From an uncultured Ignavibacteria bacterium (GTDB lineage: Bacteria; Bacteroidota; Ignavibacteria; Tepidaquicellales; OLB5): DNA of 64,000 nt. The notes beneath the pieces were generated by a model. It saw only the letters and a list, made by a program, of their open reading frames with translations, ran no database searches and was not told the origin of the DNA. Location: positions 62,001 to 126,000 of the forward strand of contig CALMYL010000006.1 of the NCBI GenBank assembly GCA_937873695.1. The letters are read 5' to 3'. Numbering within the stretch: position 1 is the stretch's first letter; the number at the start of each line of letters is the position of its first letter. This document shows positions 48 through 18,376 of this stretch, piece after piece. The position numbers and the translations under genes were made by a program.

Positions 48-208
48 TTGATTGTGACAGACTTAATTTTCAAACAGCGAGTAATGAACAAAATTAACCC
101 AAAACAGCATTGTATTTCAAAGAATAATAAGCTTAATTGTGACTTTATAAATTGATAAAAACGGTAAATGTTACAGTAATATTTAATAATATTTGTTAAT
201 TGTGACAG
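48..208 (+). repeat. Three direct repeats upstream of p1
   Basis: The motif TTRATTGTGAC occurs at 48-58, 133-143 and 196-206; the first and third copies extend to ...GACAG. The third copy ends five bases before the p1 start codon, where a ribosome binding site would be expected, and no purine-rich site is visible. The spacing (85 and 63 bases) and placement suggest binding sites for a regulator; TGTGA resembles a CRP/FNR half-site. This is inference. The AT-rich background makes partial matches easy, but three matches of 11 bases in 160 bases look non-random. Confidence 0.45.
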
Positions 209-212
209 CAAA

Positions 213-1628
213 ATGAAAAACAGCAAATTTGTAAAAAGTCTTAAATACTTAAATTATAAGCAGCTTGAAGAATTTGAAAGATTTATCAATTCTCCGTATT
301 TTTTGAAACGTAAAAGTTTGCCGGTTGTATTTAAGAAGATCAAAATGTATTATCCCGAATACAATGCAGCAAAAGAAGAAATATTTATAGCTGCCACACC
401 GGGAAAGAAATACAACGATGTGCTGATGAGAAAATATCTTTCTGAACTGAACATCATGCTTAATGATTATCTTGCAGTAAGCAGTTTCAGGAAAGATAAA
501 ATGACTTACGGCAGCAAACTGATAGACAGACTTATAGAAATAAAGAATTATGATGAAGCAGGCAAATCTGCTATGGAAGCATTGACGGAGCTTGAAAAAA
601 ATCCTTTAAGAAACGAAAAGTATTATTACAATAAATTTATCTTTGAAAGTTATTCAAAAACTATAAGTAATCTTAAAACCAATTTAAATCCCGATACCGA
701 CTGGAAAGAGGCAATGGATGGATTTGTCAATTATTCTGCATTAACGGTGTTCCAGTTCTATTACATAATATTGAATGATGCCCGTTTCAGGAAAGAAAAG
801 AGCAATATAGATCTTGAAATTCTGAATGATCTTGTGAATGTGTATGAAAAAAGGGGTATTACAGATAAGAACCCGATAGCATTTATTTTAAGTAACCTGG
901 TAAGCTCATACCTGAAGCCTGAAGATGAAGTGTATTACAGGAACATTAAACAAATGATCTCCAGTCATAAACACTTGCTTGATAAAAATGAACTGGCGGC
1001 AATTTACACTTATCTGCACAACTACTGTTTTGTAAAAGTAGATAACGGAAACCTGGATTTTCTGAAAGAAAGATTTGAAATTGTGAACGAAGTACTCAGC
1101 AGCGGGTTCCACCTTAAAGATGGCTACATAATACCCGATATGTATATATCCATGGCAAACAATGCTTTAATGCTTAAAGAGTTTGAATGGGCTGAGGATT
1201 TCATACGGAAATACAATGTTAACCTGCCTGAAGAAGAAAAAAGATCATATGAGCATCTTGCACTATCAATCTTATATATGTTTAAAGGAAATTATGACGA
1301 GGCATTGAAATACCTTAGCCGTGTGAAATTCAGGAAGTACTACGATAAGTTTAAGATAAAAGCATTGAACCTGATGATCTATTATGAGGCCGGATATTTT
1401 GAAGAAGCTTTTTTACTTGCTGATTCATACCGGCATTTTATTTCAAAATACAGGTCTGTAACTCCTTATGTAAAAGAAAGAACCAATAATTTTGTAAAAC
1501 AGGTTCTGCAATTGATCAAATTCCGGCTGAATCAGACAGAAAACCCCAAAATTAATGATTTTGAAACTTGTACCATAATGTACAGGCCATGGCTCATAAG
1601 GAAAATTAACGAAGCAGCGGCAAACTGA
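213..1628 (+). CDS. Helical repeat protein of unknown function, family copy p1
   Basis: This 471-residue protein has no signal peptide or membrane segment and is predicted all-helical. It belongs to a family with three other members here (9761-11194, 12770-14206, 16593-18044). Shared features are an N-terminal block ending in SPYF/SPYY (residues about 27-30), a PGKKY/PGEEF motif near residue 65-70, and TPR-like repeats in the last third (for example GNYDEALKYLSRVKF). The C-terminal W-L-x-x-K motif is WLIRK here. p1 is the most divergent copy: it has Leu where the others have Asn after SPYF/SPYY, and it is the only one on the plus strand. The ATG is in frame with the conserved block. Function is not recognised; a scaffold or protein-binding role is only a guess from the repeats. 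Confidence 0.85.
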   Translation: MKNSKFVKSLKYLNYKQLEEFERFINSPYFLKRKSLPVVFKKIKMYYPEYNAAKEEIFIAATPGKKYNDVLMRKYLSELNIMLNDYLAVSSFRKDKMTYGSKLIDRLIEIKNYDEAGKSAMEALTELEKNPLRNEKYYYNKFIFESYSKTISNLKTNLNPDTDWKEAMDGFVNYSALTVFQFYYIILNDARFRKEKSNIDLEILNDLVNVYEKRGITDKNPIAFILSNLVSSYLKPEDEVYYRNIKQMISSHKHLLDKNELAAIYTYLHNYCFVKVDNGNLDFLKERFEIVNEVLSSGFHLKDGYIIPDMYISMANNALMLKEFEWAEDFIRKYNVNLPEEEKRSYEHLALSILYMFKGNYDEALKYLSRVKFRKYYDKFKIKALNLMIYYEAGYFEEAFLLADSYRHFISKYRSVTPYVKERTNNFVKQVLQLIKFRLNQTENPKINDFETCTIMYRPWLIRKINEAAAN

Positions 1629-9760: not shown

Positions 9761-11194
9761 TTAAACTAATTCTTTCAGCCTGTCTTCCAGCCAGAATTTA
9801 ATTCCAAAATGATTCATTTGCTTCTTTTCAACCATTTCCAGAAGTCTTTTTGCTTCTGCCTGCATTTTCTTTTTGTTCGGTTCCTGCTTAAGATTTATCA
9901 GGTTAATGGTCATCTTTAAAAAACTCAGAATTGATCCCTTGAAATTATCTGATATGACGGCTTCCTTCGTAAAAGTTTTCTTGAAGGATTCAATGAGACT
10001 TCGTGTTTCTTCGTAATATCCAAGCTGGAAATTCAGCTGGACTTCTATAAGTCTCACCTGTACTTTCAAAATTGCCAGTGGAAAGTTTACCATTGTAATC
10101 AGTTTTAAGGCTTTGTTGTAGTCGCCTTCATAATGCGCAATATATGCATTTGAATAATTCAGGCAGTTATCAAGCTGGTCCTTTGGAAGCTGCGCCGCAT
10201 AGTCCGCTATAAATTTACGGGTAAGCTCAGTATCTCCAGCCCTGACAAATATTTTAATATAATTCACAAAGTCAGGATACAGCAGCTCTCCGGAAGTTAC
10301 CCTGTTATTAAGATATGAATGCCTGTACAGCTCGTATCCTTCATTAATGAATCTTCTGTCACCTGAAATATTATATTTATCCGCGCAGTACCCGAACATA
10401 TACATGTGTACTGTATACGCCGAGAACTCATTCATGAACTCAAAATTTCTGAAATAATGTTCCTTTAGTTTGAAGAAGTACTCTTCTTTACCCCTGGTTT
10501 TGAGAAGTATAAGATAGTTATAGGATAATGTAACAGGATGTTCACTTGCTTTATCGTGTTCAAGGAACGCTGTGACTTCTTCCATCATTTTTATATCCAG
10601 CTTAATATTATTATCCTTGCTTATATGAATAAGCAGGTTATAATAATGAAGAAGATTATTGAGAAAGTATTCAAAAAAACTGTCAAACTCATTAACTATC
10701 CCCGAAATGCTGCTGGGCTTTTCAAACAGATCAACGAATTGGCTTTCTGTTGCAATAAGATAATTGCTGTATAGAAATGCATTATCTTTGACCTTTGTTT
10801 CTTTAAAGGTTTTTTCAATTGATTTAACAAGCTTTCCATGGAGGTTAAACAGTTTGCGCATTCTCAATTGCACGATTAGATTATATTGTGAAGTAAACTC
10901 AGTTGCCGGATTGGGTGTCAGCCTAAGGAATTCAAGACCCAGGTTATAAAGATCTGATGAAATATTTTTGATCTTAAAATAATCAAATTCTTCACCCGGA
11001 AATATCTCGCTGAATATTGTTTCTTCATCCGGAAGTGTGGAATCGAATTCAGGGTGAAATCTGAAAAGTACTTCATTGAGCTTTTGTACGTTCTTATTTT
11101 TATTAAAATAAGGCGAAAGAACAAAATCCCTGAATTTTTTTATTTCTTCCCTGGAAAAAGTTTTTAGCAGAGTAATAAGTTTGGTGTTTTTCAA
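9761..11194 (-). CDS. Helical repeat protein of unknown function, family copy p2
   Basis: This 477-residue protein is in the same family as p1, p3 and p4. The N-terminus reads LLKTFSREEIKKFRDFVLSP, then YFNKNKNV, and FPGEEFDYFKIKN near residue 67. The TPR-like region GDYNKALKLITMVNF is in the last third, and it ends with FWLEDRLKEL. p2 and p3 are the closest pair: both carry F-D-Y-F-K-I-K-N after the P-G/N motif. There is no signal peptide and it is likely cytoplasmic. It is divergent from the T9SS cargo gene at 11489, with 294 bases between the starts. I do not recognise a function; a role coupled to the divergent exported protein is inference. Confidence 0.87.
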   Translation of the reverse strand: MKNTKLITLLKTFSREEIKKFRDFVLSPYFNKNKNVQKLNEVLFRFHPEFDSTLPDEETIFSEIFPGEEFDYFKIKNISSDLYNLGLEFLRLTPNPATEFTSQYNLIVQLRMRKLFNLHGKLVKSIEKTFKETKVKDNAFLYSNYLIATESQFVDLFEKPSSISGIVNEFDSFFEYFLNNLLHYYNLLIHISKDNNIKLDIKMMEEVTAFLEHDKASEHPVTLSYNYLILLKTRGKEEYFFKLKEHYFRNFEFMNEFSAYTVHMYMFGYCADKYNISGDRRFINEGYELYRHSYLNNRVTSGELLYPDFVNYIKIFVRAGDTELTRKFIADYAAQLPKDQLDNCLNYSNAYIAHYEGDYNKALKLITMVNFPLAILKVQVRLIEVQLNFQLGYYEETRSLIESFKKTFTKEAVISDNFKGSILSFLKMTINLINLKQEPNKKKMQAEAKRLLEMVEKKQMNHFGIKFWLEDRLKELV

Positions 11195-11488
11195 TAAGAC
11201 CCTTTAAAATTCAGAATAATTCTTATTCAATTTTTTCTAAAAAATTCTCTGCAAAATGCTCAAAATTATTGCTAATTGCAATTTATTCTGATATTTAAAG
11301 AAATATTATTCTAAAATCCTGTAATTATTCTTTGCAGCACCGCTAAATGGAATATATGTTTGTACTGTTACAGCGAAACAGCAAGAATTATGATTTTTAT
11401 TTTACTCATGAAAGCTTTTCACTTCTGCTGATACTGTTTCGCTGAAAAATCACAGAATAAAACTGCAGAGGTAATTTTTTTATTAGTT
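11195..11488. promoter_or_regulatory. Divergent intergenic region with 11-bp inverted repeat
   Basis: The 294-base gap separates p2 (left) from a T9SS cargo gene (right). CAGCGAAACAG at 11371-11381 is repeated inverted and exact as CTGTTTCGCTG at 11434-11444, with a 52-base loop holding a smaller hairpin (TGAAAGCTTTTCA). Nearer p2, the motif ATTGCTAATTGCAATTTA and, about 60 bases further on, TTCTTTGCAG match in order similar elements upstream of p3 and p4. The inverted repeat sits in the probable leader of the right-hand gene and could act as an RNA structure or operator. Confidence 0.5.
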
Positions 11489-12718
11489 ATGAAAGAAATA
11501 ATTTATTTAATGATTGGATTCTGTTTAATCTCACAAATACAATCACAATGGACAACATTGGATACTGGCTTTCCGCAGATTTTAACATCTATTTCGGCGG
11601 TTGATGATAATGTTGTTTGGACATGCGGACATCTTGGAAAAGTGTGCAGAACAACTAACGGAGGAGCAAGCTGGGATATTTCTGTTGTAACGCCTGATAC
11701 ATCGACACTTAACAATGTTTATGGCTTAGATCAAAATACAGCGTTTGTTTCAGCCAAAGACTATAGCCCTTCATCATCATCAGTATGGAAAACGACTGAT
11801 GGTGGCAGTTCCTGGCAGCAGGTATTCTCACAGCCGAATGGTGAAATTTATTCACTCGAAGTATTTTCTAACGGAACAGGAATTATGATCGGTAAACCGT
11901 TTAGCGGCAGATGGTCATTATTTAAAACTTCTAACTATGGTTCAACCTGGGATTCCGCGGGAATGTTTGTGCCGGGTTCAGGCGGTTCCACAGAAAACTC
12001 TTTATATACAAGAGACAATGAATATTGGTTCGGCGCATCCGGCGGACGGCTGTATTATTCGTCTAACTCCGGCATTAACTGGAGCTATCAAACACTTGGA
12101 TCAACCAATATTATCGGTATTTGGTTTAACGGACAAACAGGAATAGCCACGGGCAGCGGCGGATTCAGAACTACCAATGGGGGTATAAGCTGGTCACCTT
12201 TAACAATTCCCGGAACAGGTAACCAGCTGCCAATAAGCGGTTATGGTACTAATTTCTGGATGATAACAAGGGGAAGCATAAATATTTACAATACAACCAA
12301 TAATGGTGATAACTGGAGTAACTATAGTTCCGTATACCAGTATTCTGATATAGCAGCATCCCGCAGTGGCAGCAGGATATGGATAGCCACTCTTTCACAG
12401 TACGTGTTAAAAGACGTGGTAAATTCGGTTTCACAAATTTCTTCTCAGATTCCCCGGGATTATGAGCTTTTACAGAATTACCCAAACCCGTTTAATCCTG
12501 TTACTAATATTGAGTTCAGTATTCCAAAATCATCATTCATAACGCTCACAATATATGATATATCTGGAAGAGAGATTGAGGTCTTGGTTAATCAGAATAT
12601 GAATGCAGGCACCTATAAAGCTGACTGGGATGCATCAAAGTATTCAAGCGGTATTTATTTTTACAGGTACGAAGCAGGTGAGTATTCAGAGACAAAAAAA
12701 ATGATCCTTGTGAAATAA
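11489..12718 (+). CDS. T9SS-secreted beta-propeller with Asp-box repeats
   Basis: This 409-residue protein has an N-terminal signal peptide (ending about SQIQSQ) and at least six Asp-box-like units: TTNGGASWD, TTDGGSSWQ, TSNYGSTWD, SSNSGINWS, TTNGGISWS and TTNNGDNWS. These are typical of sialidase- or Ycf48-type beta-propellers. The C-terminal 75 residues are a T9SS type A sorting domain ([18 protein letters not shown] ... KKMILVK). No glycosidase catalytic residues are evident, so binding is more likely than catalysis. It faces away from p2, converges on p3 and is followed by a probable terminator. Confidence 0.88.
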   Translation: MKEIIYLMIGFCLISQIQSQWTTLDTGFPQILTSISAVDDNVVWTCGHLGKVCRTTNGGASWDISVVTPDTSTLNNVYGLDQNTAFVSAKDYSPSSSSVWKTTDGGSSWQQVFSQPNGEIYSLEVFSNGTGIMIGKPFSGRWSLFKTSNYGSTWDSAGMFVPGSGGSTENSLYTRDNEYWFGASGGRLYYSSNSGINWSYQTLGSTNIIGIWFNGQTGIATGSGGFRTTNGGISWSPLTIPGTGNQLPISGYGTNFWMITRGSINIYNTTNNGDNWSNYSSVYQYSDIAASRSGSRIWIATLSQYVLKDVVNSVSQISSQIPRDYELLQNYPNPFNPVTNIEFSIPKSSFITLTIYDISGREIEVLVNQNMNAGTYKADWDASKYSSGIYFYRYEAGEYSETKKMILVK

Positions 12719-12745
12719 GTTTTTTATACTTTACAAAAGGATGGC

Positions 12746-12768
12746 AGAGGAGTCTAGATGACTTCTTT
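12746..12768. terminator. Probable convergent terminator
   Basis: AGAGGAGTC-TAGAT-GACTTCTTT forms a nine-pair stem with G-U wobbles and then T-rich sequence. It lies between the end of the T9SS cargo gene (12718) and the end of p3 (12770). Confidence 0.5.
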
Positions 12769-12769
12769 G

Positions 12770-14206
12770 TTATTTTAATTCACCGGCTTTTTCAATCAGC
12801 CAGTTTTTTGCCCCAAGCGGATTTGCGCTCATCTGCTTGATTTGCTTCTTCAAAACAGCCAGGTCAACAAATGTGGTTTTGTTGATCCCTTCAAATTTCA
12901 GCCTTGCAAGCTCAGTTAGATTCCTTAAAAATTCGTAATGCGCATTCTTTTGTTCTTCTGCCATCATTTTTTCGGTCTTAAGATAATGCCTGAAAGTATC
13001 TACAGCAGAAATAGTCTGCTCATACAGGTTCTGCTCATAGTAAATACGCGCTGAATAGCTTTTTACCATAACTTTCATTAAGTACAGTTTGAAGTTAGTT
13101 TTCGAGAAAAGCTGCAGAGCCCTTCCAAAATCTTTTTGCCGGTATGCCAGGTAACCTTTGCAGTAATTAATTGTATTTAGTTTTTCTTCCTTCGGTGATA
13201 TACCGCTTTGAGCTTTTTTCAGGAAATCTTCTGCCCATTCATATTCATTTGCCATACATGCAGAAGTATAAGCGGATATTACATTCGGGAAGATCAGGTA
13301 ACCCGTATCCATAAATTTCTTTTCCACCATTTCCCTGAATGCTCTGAAGCGCTCAACATAATAATTTTCATCACCAAGTTTTAATCTGTATGCAGAGTAT
13401 GAATTCTGTTCCTGCAGTATATAATAGTATTCTTCCGGCGGGATGTTCTTCCTGTATTTTTCTTTTATTTCAAGCAATTTTCTGTAATCAGCTTCACTTT
13501 TGGATAGCTCGAGAGAAATTACCTGTTTGTAGATCAAACATGAAGGATTATCACTGAAATCCATTTCTTTGGCATATTGCCACACATTTTCAAACATCTT
13601 CATATCAAACTGAATATTGCCGTGATTTTTGTTATGGAGCATTTTAGAATACAATCTAAGTAAGCCCGTTAATGAGTATTCCAGGAAACTGTCAAATTCT
13701 GTTTGTATGCTGTTGAATGAGTATGATGAACCGGAAAATTTGTAATGCGCAATATTAACTCTTTCAAGCTGGTACTGCCTTAAATAGTTATCTTCATCTT
13801 TTACTTCTGCCCCGCGGAGCTGTTGTTTAACCTTTTTTTCTCTTTGTGAATATATGTTATCAAGTCTTCTGTCGTGCAATGCATTTAACAGATTTATTTC
13901 ACTATCCAAAGGCCGGCTTTGCGATATTGACACCTTCAAAAATTCCGCTGTAAGAGCGTACAGATCTGAAATAACATTTTTGATCTTGAAGTAATCAAAG
14001 TTCTCATTCGGAAATATCTTCCGGAAGATGTTTTCTTCTGTAAATTTTGGAGATTCAAAACCCGGCCAATAGGGTAAAACAGCTTCACAGAGATTTATGA
14101 CATTTTTATTTTTATTAAAAAAAGGTGACTTAACAAAATCATCCAGCCTAAGGATTTCCTGTTTTGAAAATGTACCAAGCAGCGATATTAGTTTGGTTTT
14201 TTTCAT
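12770..14206 (-). CDS. Helical repeat protein of unknown function, family copy p3
   Basis: This 478-residue protein has LLGTFSKQEILRLDDFVKSP followed by FFNKNKNV at the N-terminus, then FPNENFDYFKIKN, and a C-terminal WLIEKAGEL. It is the closest relative of p2. The helical hairpin region KDFGRALQLFSKTNF resembles a degenerate TPR. It is likely cytoplasmic and is divergent from the T9SS cargo gene at 14503, so p3 repeats exactly the arrangement of p2. The function is unknown. Confidence 0.87.
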   Translation of the reverse strand: MKKTKLISLLGTFSKQEILRLDDFVKSPFFNKNKNVINLCEAVLPYWPGFESPKFTEENIFRKIFPNENFDYFKIKNVISDLYALTAEFLKVSISQSRPLDSEINLLNALHDRRLDNIYSQREKKVKQQLRGAEVKDEDNYLRQYQLERVNIAHYKFSGSSYSFNSIQTEFDSFLEYSLTGLLRLYSKMLHNKNHGNIQFDMKMFENVWQYAKEMDFSDNPSCLIYKQVISLELSKSEADYRKLLEIKEKYRKNIPPEEYYYILQEQNSYSAYRLKLGDENYYVERFRAFREMVEKKFMDTGYLIFPNVISAYTSACMANEYEWAEDFLKKAQSGISPKEEKLNTINYCKGYLAYRQKDFGRALQLFSKTNFKLYLMKVMVKSYSARIYYEQNLYEQTISAVDTFRHYLKTEKMMAEEQKNAHYEFLRNLTELARLKFEGINKTTFVDLAVLKKQIKQMSANPLGAKNWLIEKAGELK

Positions 14207-14502
14207 AATAGCCTCTAAAAAATTGGATAAAATCCCCCAAAATTAGCAATATTTAAACAAATATCAAAATCAGAGCTCTAAAAAACCGCAATACTTTCTT
14301 TGTAAACCCCAAATCAATAAATTAAGTTTGAAGCGTTCGGCTATTGTTCGTGATGCTCAGATATCCTATATACATTTTTTCGTATGATACGGAACTTCAA
14401 ACTTGAAGCAGCCCGCGGCAGAAACTGTACTAAAACATGAGTTGTTTTACAGCAAAGGTTTAAAATGATATTCAAATTGAACAATAACAAAGGAGATTCA
14501 AA
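14207..14502. promoter_or_regulatory. Divergent intergenic region with 10-bp inverted repeat
   Basis: AAGTTTGAAG at 14324-14333 is repeated inverted as CTTCAAACTT at 14395-14404, 61 bases apart. This parallels the arrangement upstream of the 11489 gene, although the stem sequence is different. Near p3, CAAAATTAGCAATATTTA and then CTTTCTTTGTAA about 54 bases later match the order seen upstream of p4. AAAGGAGA gives the right-hand gene a strong ribosome binding site. Confidence 0.5.
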
Positions 14503-16581
14503 ATGAAAAAAGTTTTAATATTAGCAATTATTGCGATCAGTCTTATCTTCGGTTATCATCTAAACGCACAGGTTTCACAGGAGTGGGCTGCAAGATTCAC
14601 ATCTGCAGGTGAAAACAGAGATGCCGTTAATGATATGTTTGTTGATCAGCAGGGCAATGTGTATGTAACAGGCTCTCAGAAAGAAGGATCATATCCATAC
14701 GGATACAGGATAGAAAGTGTTACCATTAAGTACAACAGCATGGGTGTACAGCAATGGATACAAAATTACAGGGCAGCGGATACTAACGGAGCGTTCACCA
14801 GGGCAATACATGTTGATGCCGCAGGTAATGTTTATGTGACCGGCGAATCAGCAATTTATTCGGGCGGCGCAAATAAAATGCTGGTTATCAAATACAGTCC
14901 TGCAGGCACCCAGCTTTGGGCAAATCTTTTCCAATACGGAAGTAATGCTTATTGCGGCGGGTTTGATATCATCACGGATCTCTCGGGAAATGTATATGTG
15001 ACAGGTGAATACGCAACTAATGTAACTACTCTGAATAATATGTTCATTGCAAAGTATAATTCTACCGGTACATTGGTTGGGCAGACATTTATTAATGTTG
15101 GGAGCGAAGGCGCAAGAAAAATAGCAATAGATGGAGCAGGAAAAATAATAATAGCCGGTTACTGCAATATCAATCAGGCTGATTCAAACAGGTTTATGGC
15201 CGCTAAATTTGAACAAAACCTTGACCATGTATGGCAGATGAGATGCGGCAGCAAAGGTACAGGAGATCCGTCTTCACCATTTGATATGAAAGTAGATATA
15301 AACAGCAATATTATTATTACAGGTCCAAATGACAATAATTATGCGGTGTTCAAAATTAATCCTGATGGAACCCTTTCATGGAACAGATTTTATAACTACA
15401 GCGCAGATATTCCCAGGGCAGTTGTTACTGATAACACCGGTAATGTGTATGTTACAGGTGAAACCGGAAGTGCAGGATTTCCGCTTTCATATTCTATCAC
15501 AACAATTAAATATGACCCCAACGGAAATGAGCAATGGATCAAGAGCTACAATGGCGGCAGCGTACCTGATGGTTACCGCGGATATAATATTGCCATTGAT
15601 AACACAGCAAGTATATATGTAACCGGAAATATTTATAGTTCTTCAAATATCTCAACTATAAAATATAATTCAAACGGAACTTTGCAGTGGGCTAAATCAT
15701 ATAACGGGCCCAGCAACAGCGCTGATTTAAGCTGCGCTGTTGGTGTTGACGGAAACGGGAACACATTCTCGGCAGGCACAAGCAACGATTTTACCTGGGG
15801 TTATGATATTGCGGTCATAAAATATTCTCCTGTTTCTGTTTTTGCAGCGGAATTCAGGAAAAATTCAGTTAACACAGTTATTAACGATCTGCAAAGCTCA
15901 TATGATACAATTCCAGTTGACTTTACTTCTCCCATAAGTTATTATGTTTATGATGTAAACCTCAGGATAGATTCAGTTATTCATCCAAATGACGGTGATC
16001 TTGAGATCTATCTGGTTCACAACGGCGTAACCGATACTGCAATTTATCAGGTTGGCGGCTCAGGTGATAATTTTATCGGCACAGTACTTGATGATTCAGC
16101 AGCAAATACAATAGGAAGCGGAATATCCCCGTTTACAGGATCATTTAAGCCGAGTAGAGTGCTCTCTGCATTCAATAACTCAAATATTAACGGTTCGTGG
16201 ATACTGAAGATTTACGACCGGGCCGCCGGGAATACCGGAACTCTCAAAGCGTGGTCGCTTAATTTTGTGATTGGTACAAATCCTATTGGAATAAATAATA
16301 TTTCGGGTGAAGTACCAGATAAATGTTCACTTTCTCAAAACTATCCAAATCCTTTCAATCCTGCAACAAATATTAAGTTTTCAGTTCCAAAAGCCGGATT
16401 CGTAAAGCTGATAGTATTTGATATGCTTGGCAGGGAAGTTGAAACTCTTGTTAATGAAAATCTTAATGCCGGTACATACAATGTTGACTGGAAGGCAGCT
16501 AATTATTCAAGCGGAGTGTATTTTTACAGGTTGCACTCAGGTGAGTTCAGTGATATAAAGAAAATGGTTCTTATCAAATAA
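14503..16581 (+). CDS. T9SS-secreted SBBP beta-propeller with P-domain
   Basis: This 692-residue protein has a signal peptide (residues 1-22) and then about eight SBBP-type units centred on D-x-x-G-N-V-Y-V-T-G (for example [30 protein letters not shown]). A P/Homo B domain follows at about residues 470-595 ([10 protein letters not shown] ... [24 protein letters not shown]), and the protein ends with a T9SS type A sorting domain ([18 protein letters not shown] ... KKMVLIK). P-domains usually accompany subtilisin-type proteases, but no protease domain is present. It is probably an adhesive or binding surface protein. It is divergent from p3 and convergent with p4, 12 bases from the p4 stop. Confidence 0.9.
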
Positions 16582-16592
16582 CAGCAGGAAAA

Positions 16593-18044
16593 CTATTTCT
16601 TCAATTCTTCTATCTTCAAAAGCAGCCATTCGCCAAACGGGAGTTCAGGGTCAACGGTAAGTTTTTTCCTTATGATTTCGATCTCGGCGCTGTCATTTTT
16701 TTCAATGGCGTTTGTTAAGTTGGTAAGAAAGTTAAGGAACCTCAGAAAATTCACTCTGGTTTTTTCACTTAGCGAAACTGTTGAGCTAATGAAGTGTTTA
16801 GCGGAATCTACCTGGTACATTAACAGTTCAAATTCACGGGTTTCGAAATACGTTCTTAAATAAAGTGATTTAACATACATCTTATCTCTAATGTCAATAA
16901 ATTTCACATCCTTCAGGTTTTCAATAACCAGACTGTGTTTTTTAAGTTTCAAATTCAGGTATGCAAGTGCAAGCGCTTTCATTGGTTTCTGGTATGATGA
17001 TCTTAACCTTTGAGAGTATTCGTTAATATAATCAGGCGCCCATTCTGTTTTGTTTATTGAAAGGGCATTCCGCAATATCTGAATGAAAAGTATTTTTGAC
17101 AGGTGTTTGCTGTTGCCGCTGTACCCGACTTTGAGCTCAAGATTATTGAGATCAAAAAGATACTCCCTGTATTTTTTTTCTCCTTCATTACCGCGTAAAG
17201 TACAATAATTTGAAAGAGTCGTTATCCAGGACAATTTTTCATTGTCAGAAAATCTTTCAATATTTAGCTCAAAAAGTTCCTTGAGTCTGAGGAAATATTT
17301 CTCTTCTTTGCCCTTTATTACTGTCATAATTGAACAGTACAGCATTTCCATGATATCTGAATCCTCGTAGTTGTTATCCCTTGCATACCTAATAACGCTT
17401 TCCATATCAATGGCAGAAATGAATGAAAAAGGAATATTCACATCAAACTTAGCGTTAAACATAAACGCATTCGCGTTGATATCATTTATAACAGAGGAAA
17501 GCTGCCGCAGCATATTCATAATTGCGTACTCACCTTTTTTCACAATGTGCTTCGAAAGCAAATGCTGTGTATCTTTAAGGAAATGGTACATCATCCTTCC
17601 CGATTCGAGTTCGTTTTTATTTTTAAAATAATCCTCACTAATACCTGTCTTTTCAATGGCTTTTTCCATTTCGTCAAGCTTTTTTAACTGGTATGATGCA
17701 AGTCTTCTGTTAAGGAATTCATCAGCAAGCAGCCTGTTCTTTATGAACTTATTTTTAGTTAGTGATGTACTTATCAAAAATTCTTCTGCCATCTGCTGCA
17801 GTGATGAAGTCATATTCCAGATTATCTGTTTGTTGAATTTTTTGCCGGGGTATAATAATGAATAAACATACTCATGTGTAAGAGTTTCATCTTCAAATTT
17901 AGGTGAAAATTTATTTATTTGTGTGAGAAGGGGAAGGTAATTTCTGCCTTTATTATAGTATGGTGAACCTATGAACTTTTCGAACTCCTTAAGCTCGTTT
18001 TTTGAGAAAGTCCTCAGAATATTTATCAGTTTTGAGTTTATCAC
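16593..18044 (-). CDS. Helical repeat protein of unknown function, family copy p4
   Basis: This 483-residue protein has ILRTFSKNELKEFEKFIGSP followed by YYNKGRNY at the N-terminus, YPGKKFNKQIIWN near residue 67, and ends WLLLKIEEL. The N-terminal block is strongly conserved with p2 and p3 and the middle much less so. Unlike p2 and p3, no T9SS gene lies divergently upstream; the 372-base gap instead holds a short plus-strand unit with promoter, 24-codon ORF and terminator. The function is unknown. Confidence 0.86.
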   Translation of the reverse strand: MINSKLINILRTFSKNELKEFEKFIGSPYYNKGRNYLPLLTQINKFSPKFEDETLTHEYVYSLLYPGKKFNKQIIWNMTSSLQQMAEEFLISTSLTKNKFIKNRLLADEFLNRRLASYQLKKLDEMEKAIEKTGISEDYFKNKNELESGRMMYHFLKDTQHLLSKHIVKKGEYAIMNMLRQLSSVINDINANAFMFNAKFDVNIPFSFISAIDMESVIRYARDNNYEDSDIMEMLYCSIMTVIKGKEEKYFLRLKELFELNIERFSDNEKLSWITTLSNYCTLRGNEGEKKYREYLFDLNNLELKVGYSGNSKHLSKILFIQILRNALSINKTEWAPDYINEYSQRLRSSYQKPMKALALAYLNLKLKKHSLVIENLKDVKFIDIRDKMYVKSLYLRTYFETREFELLMYQVDSAKHFISSTVSLSEKTRVNFLRFLNFLTNLTNAIEKNDSAEIEIIRKKLTVDPELPFGEWLLLKIEELKK

Positions 18045-18187
18045 TCTGAATTGAACCCAGTTTAGTTATCAGATGCTGTATTCTGCTGTTTAGTTTTGAT
18101 CTTTTAAAACCTGCAAAAAAGCTCCAAAATCCCGCTTTTTCACAATTTCATTCAATTTAGCAATGTTTAGTTCGTTTTTAAAGTCTC

Positions 18188-18219
18188 TTTGAATCCCCTT
18201 TGCATGAAGAATATCTTTG
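18188..18219 (+). promoter_or_regulatory. Consensus Bacteroidota-type promoter
   Basis: TTTG at 18188-18191 and TATCTTTG at 18212-18219 are separated by exactly 20 bases. This is a full match to the TTTG-N19/21-TAnnTTTG promoter of Bacteroidota. It points right into the stretch 18220-18376, where the only ORF is 24 codons long. The predicted start is near 18226. Confidence 0.6.
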
Positions 18220-18251
18220 TAACAGGTAAAAATTAAAAGAGAATCTAACTA

Positions 18252-18326
18252 ATGAACAAACAAACTAAAACACAGCATCGTAATACAACCGGTCGCAACA
18301 TCTGGGGTCCTGTAATTTCAGGATAA
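18252..18326 (+). CDS. Possible 24-residue peptide or leader of a small RNA
   Basis: The 372-base stretch between p4 and the aminotransferase holds a complete-looking short transcription unit. A consensus promoter (18188-18219) is followed by AAAAGAGA about 10 bases before an ATG, then 24 codons (start MNKQTKTQHRNTT, end GRNIWGPVISG) and a terminator at 18349-18376. The peptide is basic and unlike anything I recognise. The end of the ORF overlaps a small hairpin (TCCTG-TAATTT-CAGGA, 18308-18323). The unit may equally be a non-coding RNA of about 150 bases. The position mirrors that of the T9SS cargo genes in the p2 and p3 modules. Confidence 0.35.
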   Translation: MNKQTKTQHRNTTGRNIWGPVISG

Positions 18327-18348
18327 ATTCGGGAGAATTCCGGCAATC

Positions 18349-18376
18349 AAAAAAGGAGCCAATGGGCTCCTTTTTT
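18349..18376. terminator. Bidirectional Rho-independent terminator
   Basis: AAAAAAGGAGCC-AAT-GGGCTCCTTTTTT has a strong GC stem with A and T runs on both sides. On the minus strand it follows the aminotransferase gene; on the plus strand it ends the short unit starting at 18188. Confidence 0.9.

Follow-up and report, generated by a model that had tools for sequence, protein, structure and literature searches.

Helical proteins encoded back to back with type IX secretion cargo genes in an Ignavibacteria genome: a family of probable local transcription regulators

The locus and its genes

The stretch of DNA analysed here (the window, 64,000 nucleotides; G000:C6:62001-126000) belongs to the 3.78 Mb draft genome of an uncultured Ignavibacteria bacterium, whose nearest public relatives are Ignavibacteria metagenome-assembled genomes. 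The open reading frame (ORF) list and a profile search show that it encodes four members of one protein family, p1 to p4 (Table 1). A preliminary description of p2, p3 and p4 as proteins of about 480 residues, of one family and all reading left, was right in its coordinates, and p1 is a fourth copy. Upstream of p1, p2 and p3, on the opposite strand, lie genes for cargo of the type IX secretion system (T9SS). The propellers encoded at 11489 and 14503, which had been proposed as such cargo, both end in a T9SS type A sorting domain that scores above the TIGR04183 cut-off of 23 bits, and hydrophobic N-termini are visible in their translations. The family members are probably cytoplasmic one-component transcription regulators that had no name until now, each controlling its divergent gene.

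Table 1. Positions of the family genes, their partners and the elements of the divergent gaps (window coordinates unless a contig is given).
Feature	Position	Strand	Remarks
p1	213-1628	+	family member, 471 aa
Divergent T9SS cargo gene of p1	G000:C6:60644-61909	-	left of the window
p2	9761-11194	-	family member, 477 aa
p3	12770-14206	-	family member, 478 aa; AlphaFold2 pLDDT 95
p4	16593-18044	-	family member, 483 aa
T9SS type A cargo, BNR/Sortilin-like propeller	11489-12718	+	409 aa; TIGR04183 E 3.1e-12, 46.3 bits
T9SS type A cargo, SBBP-repeat propeller with P-domain	14503-16581	+	692 aa; TIGR04183 E 5.3e-10, 39.1 bits
Third GTCACAA copy, p1	52-58	-	in cargo leader; fourth copy 64 bp further, outside the window
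Proximal operator-like GTCACAA, p1	137-143	-	63 bp from distal copy
Distal operator-like GTCACAA, p1	200-206	-	adjoins p1 start; same place in G009 and G002 orthologues
Distal operator-like box TTCTAAAA	11235-11242	+	p2 gap
Proximal operator-like box TTCTAAAA	11309-11316	+	p2 gap; 74 bp from distal, 22 bp before -33 box
Cargo promoter TTTG-N20-TATGTTTG	11331-11362	+	p2 gap; -33/-7 at 11331/11355
5'-leader pseudoknot	11371-11472	+	p2 gap; 0/60 shuffles as stable
Pseudoknot stem 1, CAGCGAAACAG/CTGTTTCGCTG	11371-11381/11434-11444	+	
Pseudoknot stem 2, ACTTCTGC/GCAGAGGT	11421-11428/11465-11472	+	
Distal operator-like box CTCTAAAA	14213-14220	+	p3 gap, in presumed p3 5' leader
Promoter-like TTTG-N19-TAATTTTG of p3 itself	14238-14268	-	between both operator-like boxes of p3 gap
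Proximal operator-like box CTCTAAAA	14276-14283	+	p3 gap; 63 bp from distal
Cargo promoter TTTG-N20-TAAGTTTG	14299-14330	+	p3 gap; -33/-7 at 14299/14323
Distal operator-like box GTTTAGTT	18088-18095	+	p4 gap; further copy at 18060
Proximal operator-like box GTTTAGTT	18165-18172	+	p4 gap; 77 bp from 18088, 23 bp before -33 box
Divergent promoter TTTG-N20-TATCTTTG	18188-18219	+	p4 gap; -33/-7 at 18188/18212
Conserved 24-aa peptide MNKQTKTQHRNTTGRNIWGPVISG	18252-18326	+	five relatives
Terminator-like hairpin AAAAAGGAGCC-AAT-GGGCTCCTTTTTT	~18350-18376	+	after peptide ORF; read from sequence

Divergent pairing with T9SS genes

Gene calling followed a simple longest-ORF rule, T9SS tails were recognised with an iterated profile, and family-family tandems were left out of the upstream-neighbour counts. 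The related genomes are not independent samples, the loci were found via the family itself, and all pairing counts are to be read accordingly. A divergent upstream neighbour is present in 116 of 119 family members versus 266 of 764 other genes. The three sets agree: 32/33 versus 98/327 in the source genome, 42/42 versus 66/207 in other Ignavibacteria and 42/44 versus 102/230 in other Bacteroidota. Of 113 divergent partners, 78 carry a T9SS sorting domain at the C-terminus; for divergent pairs that lack the family, the count of T9SS genes is 9 of 142. For the same sets these counts are 21/31 against 5/62, 21/41 against 2/24 and 36/41 against 2/56 (Fisher p 4e-9, 4e-4 and 9e-19). NCBIfam model TIGR04183 supports the partner count independently, with 36 of 42 partners outside Ignavibacteria. 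According to the preliminary description, the arrangement would be put down to chance if relatives elsewhere showed no preference for T9SS neighbours or for divergent layout. In the counts above, both preferences are present.

Several loci depart from the simple pair. Five (L075, L088, L093, L099, L113) have, in place of a secreted partner, a conserved 136-aa cytosolic protein (MFGFGKK...PRVGDKINIKYNPANTSQV) encoded divergently from one family gene or a pair of them. In five others (L016, G000:C7:72599-74047; L014, G000:C26:13889-15340; L064; L089; L109) the cargo operon opens with a fibronectin type III-like protein of ~89-110 aa, which lacks a signal peptide and precedes the secreted cargo. 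Small proteins of 61-70 aa with apparent signal peptides were found beside family members in the leaders of G000:C8:223302, C8:493406 and C4:119607; they have a loosely common C-terminal pattern (YxIxV...DGxxV) and are possibly secreted peptides. At L171 (G009:C1:428000-440000) the orthologues of p2 and p3 stand in tandem with no cargo gene between them, and the divergent partner of p2 was lost there.

Distribution of the family

None of 100 family members received an assignment in Pfam or NCBIfam, where only scattered weak TPR (tetratricopeptide repeat) or ARM matches appeared, and a sequence search of the PDB with the family likewise gave nothing beyond weak TPR/ARM matches. The source genome contains 39 divergent family copies (profile built from 36 paralogues), and the copies are mostly ~20-30% identical among themselves. 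By profile search, genomes of the same genus typically hold from 16 to at least 52 copies, and those of the same order from 0 to at least 52. In a draw across the phylum a family match was present in 31 of 296 genomes; most of these matches were weak, and certain families had full-length copies. The named sequences that are full-length members belong to Ignavibacteria, Saprospiraceae, Chitinophagales, Sphingobacteriales and one Kapaibacterium. Single copies are patchy: of the 13 genomes of the genus, p1 occurs in three, C17_107535 in two and C20_7798 in six. Across 30 genomes, those with more T9SS-tail candidates have more family copies (rho 0.78), and the correlation with genome size is weaker (rho 0.66).

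In seven loci (L067, L072, L079, L097, L105, L116, L121) tandem family genes share one divergent gap, and the ends of these genes overlap by 4-8 bases or lie almost next to each other; L062 has four family genes in a row behind one gap. One copy with a single in-frame TAG (G000:C7:197142-198578) is probably a decaying gene.

Promoters and paired boxes in the divergent gaps

The divergent gaps have a median length of ~260-320 bp. Those of p2, p3 and p4 had been described as sharing the order TAGCAAT-like motif, CTTTG box, leader. Ordered elements are indeed present, and the CTTTG is the -33 element of TTTG-N20-TAnnTTTG, which we take to be the known Bacteroidota promoter, with a 20-bp spacer in all three gaps. 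TAGCAAT does not stand as a shared element: among the three, exact copies occur only in the p3 and p4 gaps, and the p3 copy (14244-14250) overlaps the -7 box of p3's own promoter. In p3 and three relatives the two boxes flank a promoter that belongs to the family gene itself. In Ignavibacteria gaps the motif TTTCTTTG is enriched (30/65, 1.4 expected) and corresponds to the -33 part of the promoter; it was found upstream of 8 of 21 T9SS partners, 1 of 20 other T9SS genes and 6 of 156 other genes. In three Saprospiraceae loci (L094, L098, L110) two elements in the gap before the cargo start are strongly conserved, TTGTACTTC close to the promoter and CATAATCCCATTTRCA immediately 5' of the start codon.

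The element that does recur is a direct repeat, one copy ~20-25 bp upstream of the -33 box and the second 63-66, 74-78 or ~87 bp further out. Its sequence varies by subfamily and is kept in orthologues whose gaps otherwise diverged. In the clade of p2 and p3, YTCTAAAA is found 19-21 bp before the -33 motif in all 24 gaps (expected 1.9) and recurs beside the family gene, at a distance of 63-64 or 74-76 bp, in 19 of 24 (expected 0.06); at that place the motif is absent from all 26 other gaps of the source genome, and other family members have different box sequences in the same register. Most of eleven usable relatives of p4 share with it a pair of GWTTAGT-type boxes at 77-78 bp (partly read by eye).

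Comparison of orthologues is the strongest evidence for the paired boxes. Orthologues of p1 keep GTCACAA at four places, 63-64 bp apart within each pair, in gaps that have otherwise changed. C20_7798 and its five orthologues (56-74% identity; 6 genomes) keep two copies of GGTTACAA 64-66 bp apart, and C17_107535 and its orthologue two copies of GGGTAATA at 65-66 bp, the remainder of both gaps having diverged. A cognate box that stays at fixed positions across orthologues in a diverging gap is what is expected of an operator-bound local regulator. Direct-repeat spacings in 100 gaps peak at 60-64 (12 versus 3.2 expected) and 75-79 (10 versus 3.1 expected). Strict pairs of exact octamers were detected in 15 of 74 Ignavibacteria gaps (1.8 expected), compared with 4 of 60 control divergent gaps (1.1 expected).

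The boxes would be bound by the family protein itself. There is a very small chance that they belong to other factors and that the helical protein has an unrelated job. Such factors could be ribbon-helix-helix-like or other small proteins, which are often encoded first in cargo operons; small ribbon-helix-helix-like ORFs with a GYRLKPETH-type motif hold that place in some of them (leaders of G000:C6:445138, C23:162551 and C21:80181; L191). However, p1, p2 and p3 keep their boxes without any such ORF, box sequence tracks the family subclade, and the family gene is the sole constant neighbour.

Predicted fold

The AlphaFold2 model, built on 100 aligned members, is all-helical, with a pLDDT (predicted local distance difference test score) of 95, and residues ~98-478 form a TPR superhelix. 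When the whole model was compared with known structures, the first twelve VIA-align rows were all Rap/NprR (Z 13-15), slightly above other TPR proteins; this ranking is suggestive at most. The N-terminal ~97 residues, including the SPYFNKN block, are the most conserved part and carry a higher net positive charge (+4.0 vs +1.7), while the C-terminal region is variable. Residues 1-114 alone fold at pLDDT 93. The weak best rows for this domain (Z 3.8-4.8) include the winged-helix proteins RstA, PerR and Fur; because the best match reaches only Z 4.8, a DNA-binding fold is not established. Foldseek matches of the domain (USP7 and others) were noise.

A TPR fold, a variable C-terminal region and a tight genetic link to exported proteins would also suit cargo-specific cytosolic chaperones or secretion adaptors that hold the product of the neighbouring gene before export, as class II chaperones of type III secretion do. 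A chaperone gene is normally transcribed together with that of its cargo, though, and the layout here is almost always divergent. Such a role would also leave the conserved paired boxes, the cytosolic partners and the pairing of p4 with a 24-aa peptide unexplained, and we regard it as very unlikely.

Pseudoknot leaders of cargo mRNAs

In the p2/p3 clade the predicted start of the cargo transcript lies ~5-10 nt past the -7 box, at the beginning of a helix. All 23 leaders examined in this clade fold into a 5'-terminal H-type pseudoknot with interlaced stems (1-2-1'-2'), and for any leader none of 60 shuffles was as stable. The arms are locus-specific yet complementary (e.g. CAGCGAAACAG, TTCGGCTATG, GGCTATATGATGC, CTAATGGCGTTA). 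Stem 1 shows both-sided, compensatory changes in 6 pairs and a covariation score of 0.167, versus 0.100 for shuffled and 0.024-0.070 for slid alignments. In p3's own leader the stem was lost, although p3 orthologues keep it. A search with the leader model R1 across the genus found 19 copies in 13 genomes, nearly all ahead of family partners, and an Rfam search of the window and of the leader-bearing loci returned nothing for the leaders. A universal pseudoknot leader was rejected, since the structure is significant in a subset only and rare among other members.

One pseudoknot leader (L163, G004:C71:20975-21103) precedes a gene for a 125-130 aa lipoprotein with no family gene adjoining. The idea that leader and regulator are kept there unlinked was dropped: the lone clade protein of that genome is the p2 orthologue (61%), not an orthologue of the regulator that matches this leader type.

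These structures raise the alternative that the TPR protein binds the cargo 5' leader and controls translation or stability, in the manner of organellar helical-repeat proteins. The pseudoknot in every examined leader of the clade, its compensatory changes and the recurrence of R1 before family partners across the genus all agree with this. Yet most gaps, and nearly all outside Ignavibacteria, have no significant pseudoknot, the boxes lie in upstream DNA outside the cargo transcript, and the G004 leader has no family gene beside it. Leader binding as the function of the family is unlikely.

p4 and its peptide

The short plus-strand unit that had been proposed to the right of p4 was confirmed in all its parts: promoter, 24-codon ORF and terminator-like hairpin. 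The encoded peptide is found in five relatives at 45-88% identity (MNTQTKTNHHNSTGRNIWGPVISG, MKTKRNNTQNTAGGRNIWGPIISG, MNKTKQTTAGFRNTWGPVIIG, MKTNQTKRVDLSRHIWGSVIAD, MKATNVKTCLKLNRTIWGSVIVG); its C-terminus is conserved (xIWGxVIxG) and its N-terminus drifts. The changes in the last 11 codons are mostly synonymous among the closest relatives: 5 synonymous and 0 non-synonymous in one such comparison, 6 and 1 in another. The peptide has no obvious signal sequence.

Exchange of cargo genes

Within the source genome, similarity between family members and similarity between their cargo proteins are unrelated (Mantel rho 0.003, 19 pairs), and co-duplication of family and cargo genes was rejected there. 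A rho of 0.72 in another set is no evidence of co-duplication because it includes orthologous pairs. A family gene travels as a unit with its operator-promoter region, and the cargo gene is swapped. Of the earlier proposal that a two-gene module was duplicated with its right-hand gene swapped or lost, the swap survives and duplication of the module does not. Nor did p4 simply lose its right-hand gene, as the 24-codon ORF encodes a conserved peptide.

Proposed mechanism and its weak points

Because of the back-to-back layout and the paired, copy-specific boxes, each copy is most likely a private switch of its neighbour. In the proposed mechanism, the N-terminal helical domain (residues 1 to ~97) would recognise directly repeated copies of a DNA box specific to each regulator, and a ligand may be sensed by the C-terminal TPR superhelix (~98-478). 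The proximal box, ~20 bp upstream of the -33 element of the cargo promoter (about -55), is at a typical activator position. The distal box, 63-66, 74-78 or ~87 bp off, or roughly whole helical turns, adjoins the regulator's own start. From these two positions, each copy probably activates its neighbour, in most cases the gene of a surface protein exported by the T9SS, and represses itself, perhaps through a DNA loop. A pseudoknot in the cargo mRNA may add a second, post-transcriptional layer in one clade. The preliminary description had offered regulation, processing and export as the paired role; of these, the operator-like pairs give strong indirect support to regulation.

Several points weigh against control by private regulators. 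Outside Ignavibacteria strict exact-octamer pairs are at chance (1 of 40 other Bacteroidota gaps, 1.0 expected) and only one Saprospiraceae set has a conserved repeat, at ~87 bp; even within Ignavibacteria the strict test finds pairs in a minority of gaps. Given 15/74 versus 1/40, the box pair is solid in Ignavibacteria and elsewhere only suggested, and a strict phylum-wide feature is unsupported. About 30% of divergent partners lack a T9SS tail, although many of these look secreted or lipoprotein-like; a few are cytosolic. The Rap/NprR scores are within reach of unrelated TPR proteins, the N-terminal domain has no confident structural match, and the pairing counts come from non-independent genomes.

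Comparison with known systems

Many RRNPP receptors have an N-terminal DNA-binding domain and an adjoining short peptide gene (PMC10075063). The same source defines them by a length of 250-500 aa, TPRs detected by profile models, a directly adjacent small secreted propeptide and peptide binding by the TPRs. At 471-483 aa, p1 to p4 fall within the size range. TPRs are not generally detected by profile (~10 or fewer of 100 members touch a TPR-type Pfam model at 1e-3, best 3e-5), the superhelix being visible in the predicted fold only, and most partners are large proteins and not small secreted propeptides. As these two published features were looked for and not found, the family is not filed under RRNPP.

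The likeness to RRNPP proteins (Rap, Rgg, NprR, PlcR, PrgX; Firmicutes) lies in their being cytoplasmic TPR proteins of similar size, with Rap and NprR as the best structural matches, and by analogy the divergent 24-aa peptide of p4 recalls Rgg with SHP. Unlike them, the family has no detectable sequence relation to RRNPP, no established helix-turn-helix, Gram-negative hosts, a partner that is usually a large T9SS protein and not a propeptide, tens of paralogues per genome, paired boxes at 6-8 turns and pseudoknot leaders. It is a tentative and rather doubtful thought that the family forms a peptide-responsive, RRNPP-like superfamily in Gram-negative Bacteroidota. Its TPR receptors, some of them paired with divergent short peptides (IWGPVISG of p4), would each control one exported surface protein of their own. 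If so, ~40 such circuits would run side by side in a cell, insulated from one another and each with a diverged DNA code.

SusR/HTCS (hybrid two-component systems) and the extracytoplasmic function (ECF) sigma/anti-sigma pairs of polysaccharide utilization loci likewise number dozens of paralogues per genome, each a local regulator encoded beside the exported-protein genes that it controls. They differ in being membrane or sigma-factor systems whose domains are known, whereas this family is soluble and helical and lacks a Pfam or NCBIfam model. PorX/PorY/SigP is a single global T9SS regulator system that acts on secretion genes. Transcriptional control is tied to type IX secretion in both cases, but in the family each cargo would have a regulator of its own.

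The family is new by name, and cytoplasmic one-component local TPR regulators are already known in Firmicutes. New relative to these are its scale, T9SS link, host phylum, paired-box architecture and pseudoknot leader, the 5'-terminal pseudoknot leaders being a new class. To our knowledge, how Bacteroidota select among hundreds of T9SS surface proteins is largely open, and the family would give a direct handle on this choice. As genes, partners, promoter and predicted box are all specified, gel shifts and reporter assays can test control cargo by cargo. Each genome would also provide dozens of natural protein-operator pairs whose DNA code has changed, from which one could learn how a new DNA-binding domain recognises its sites.

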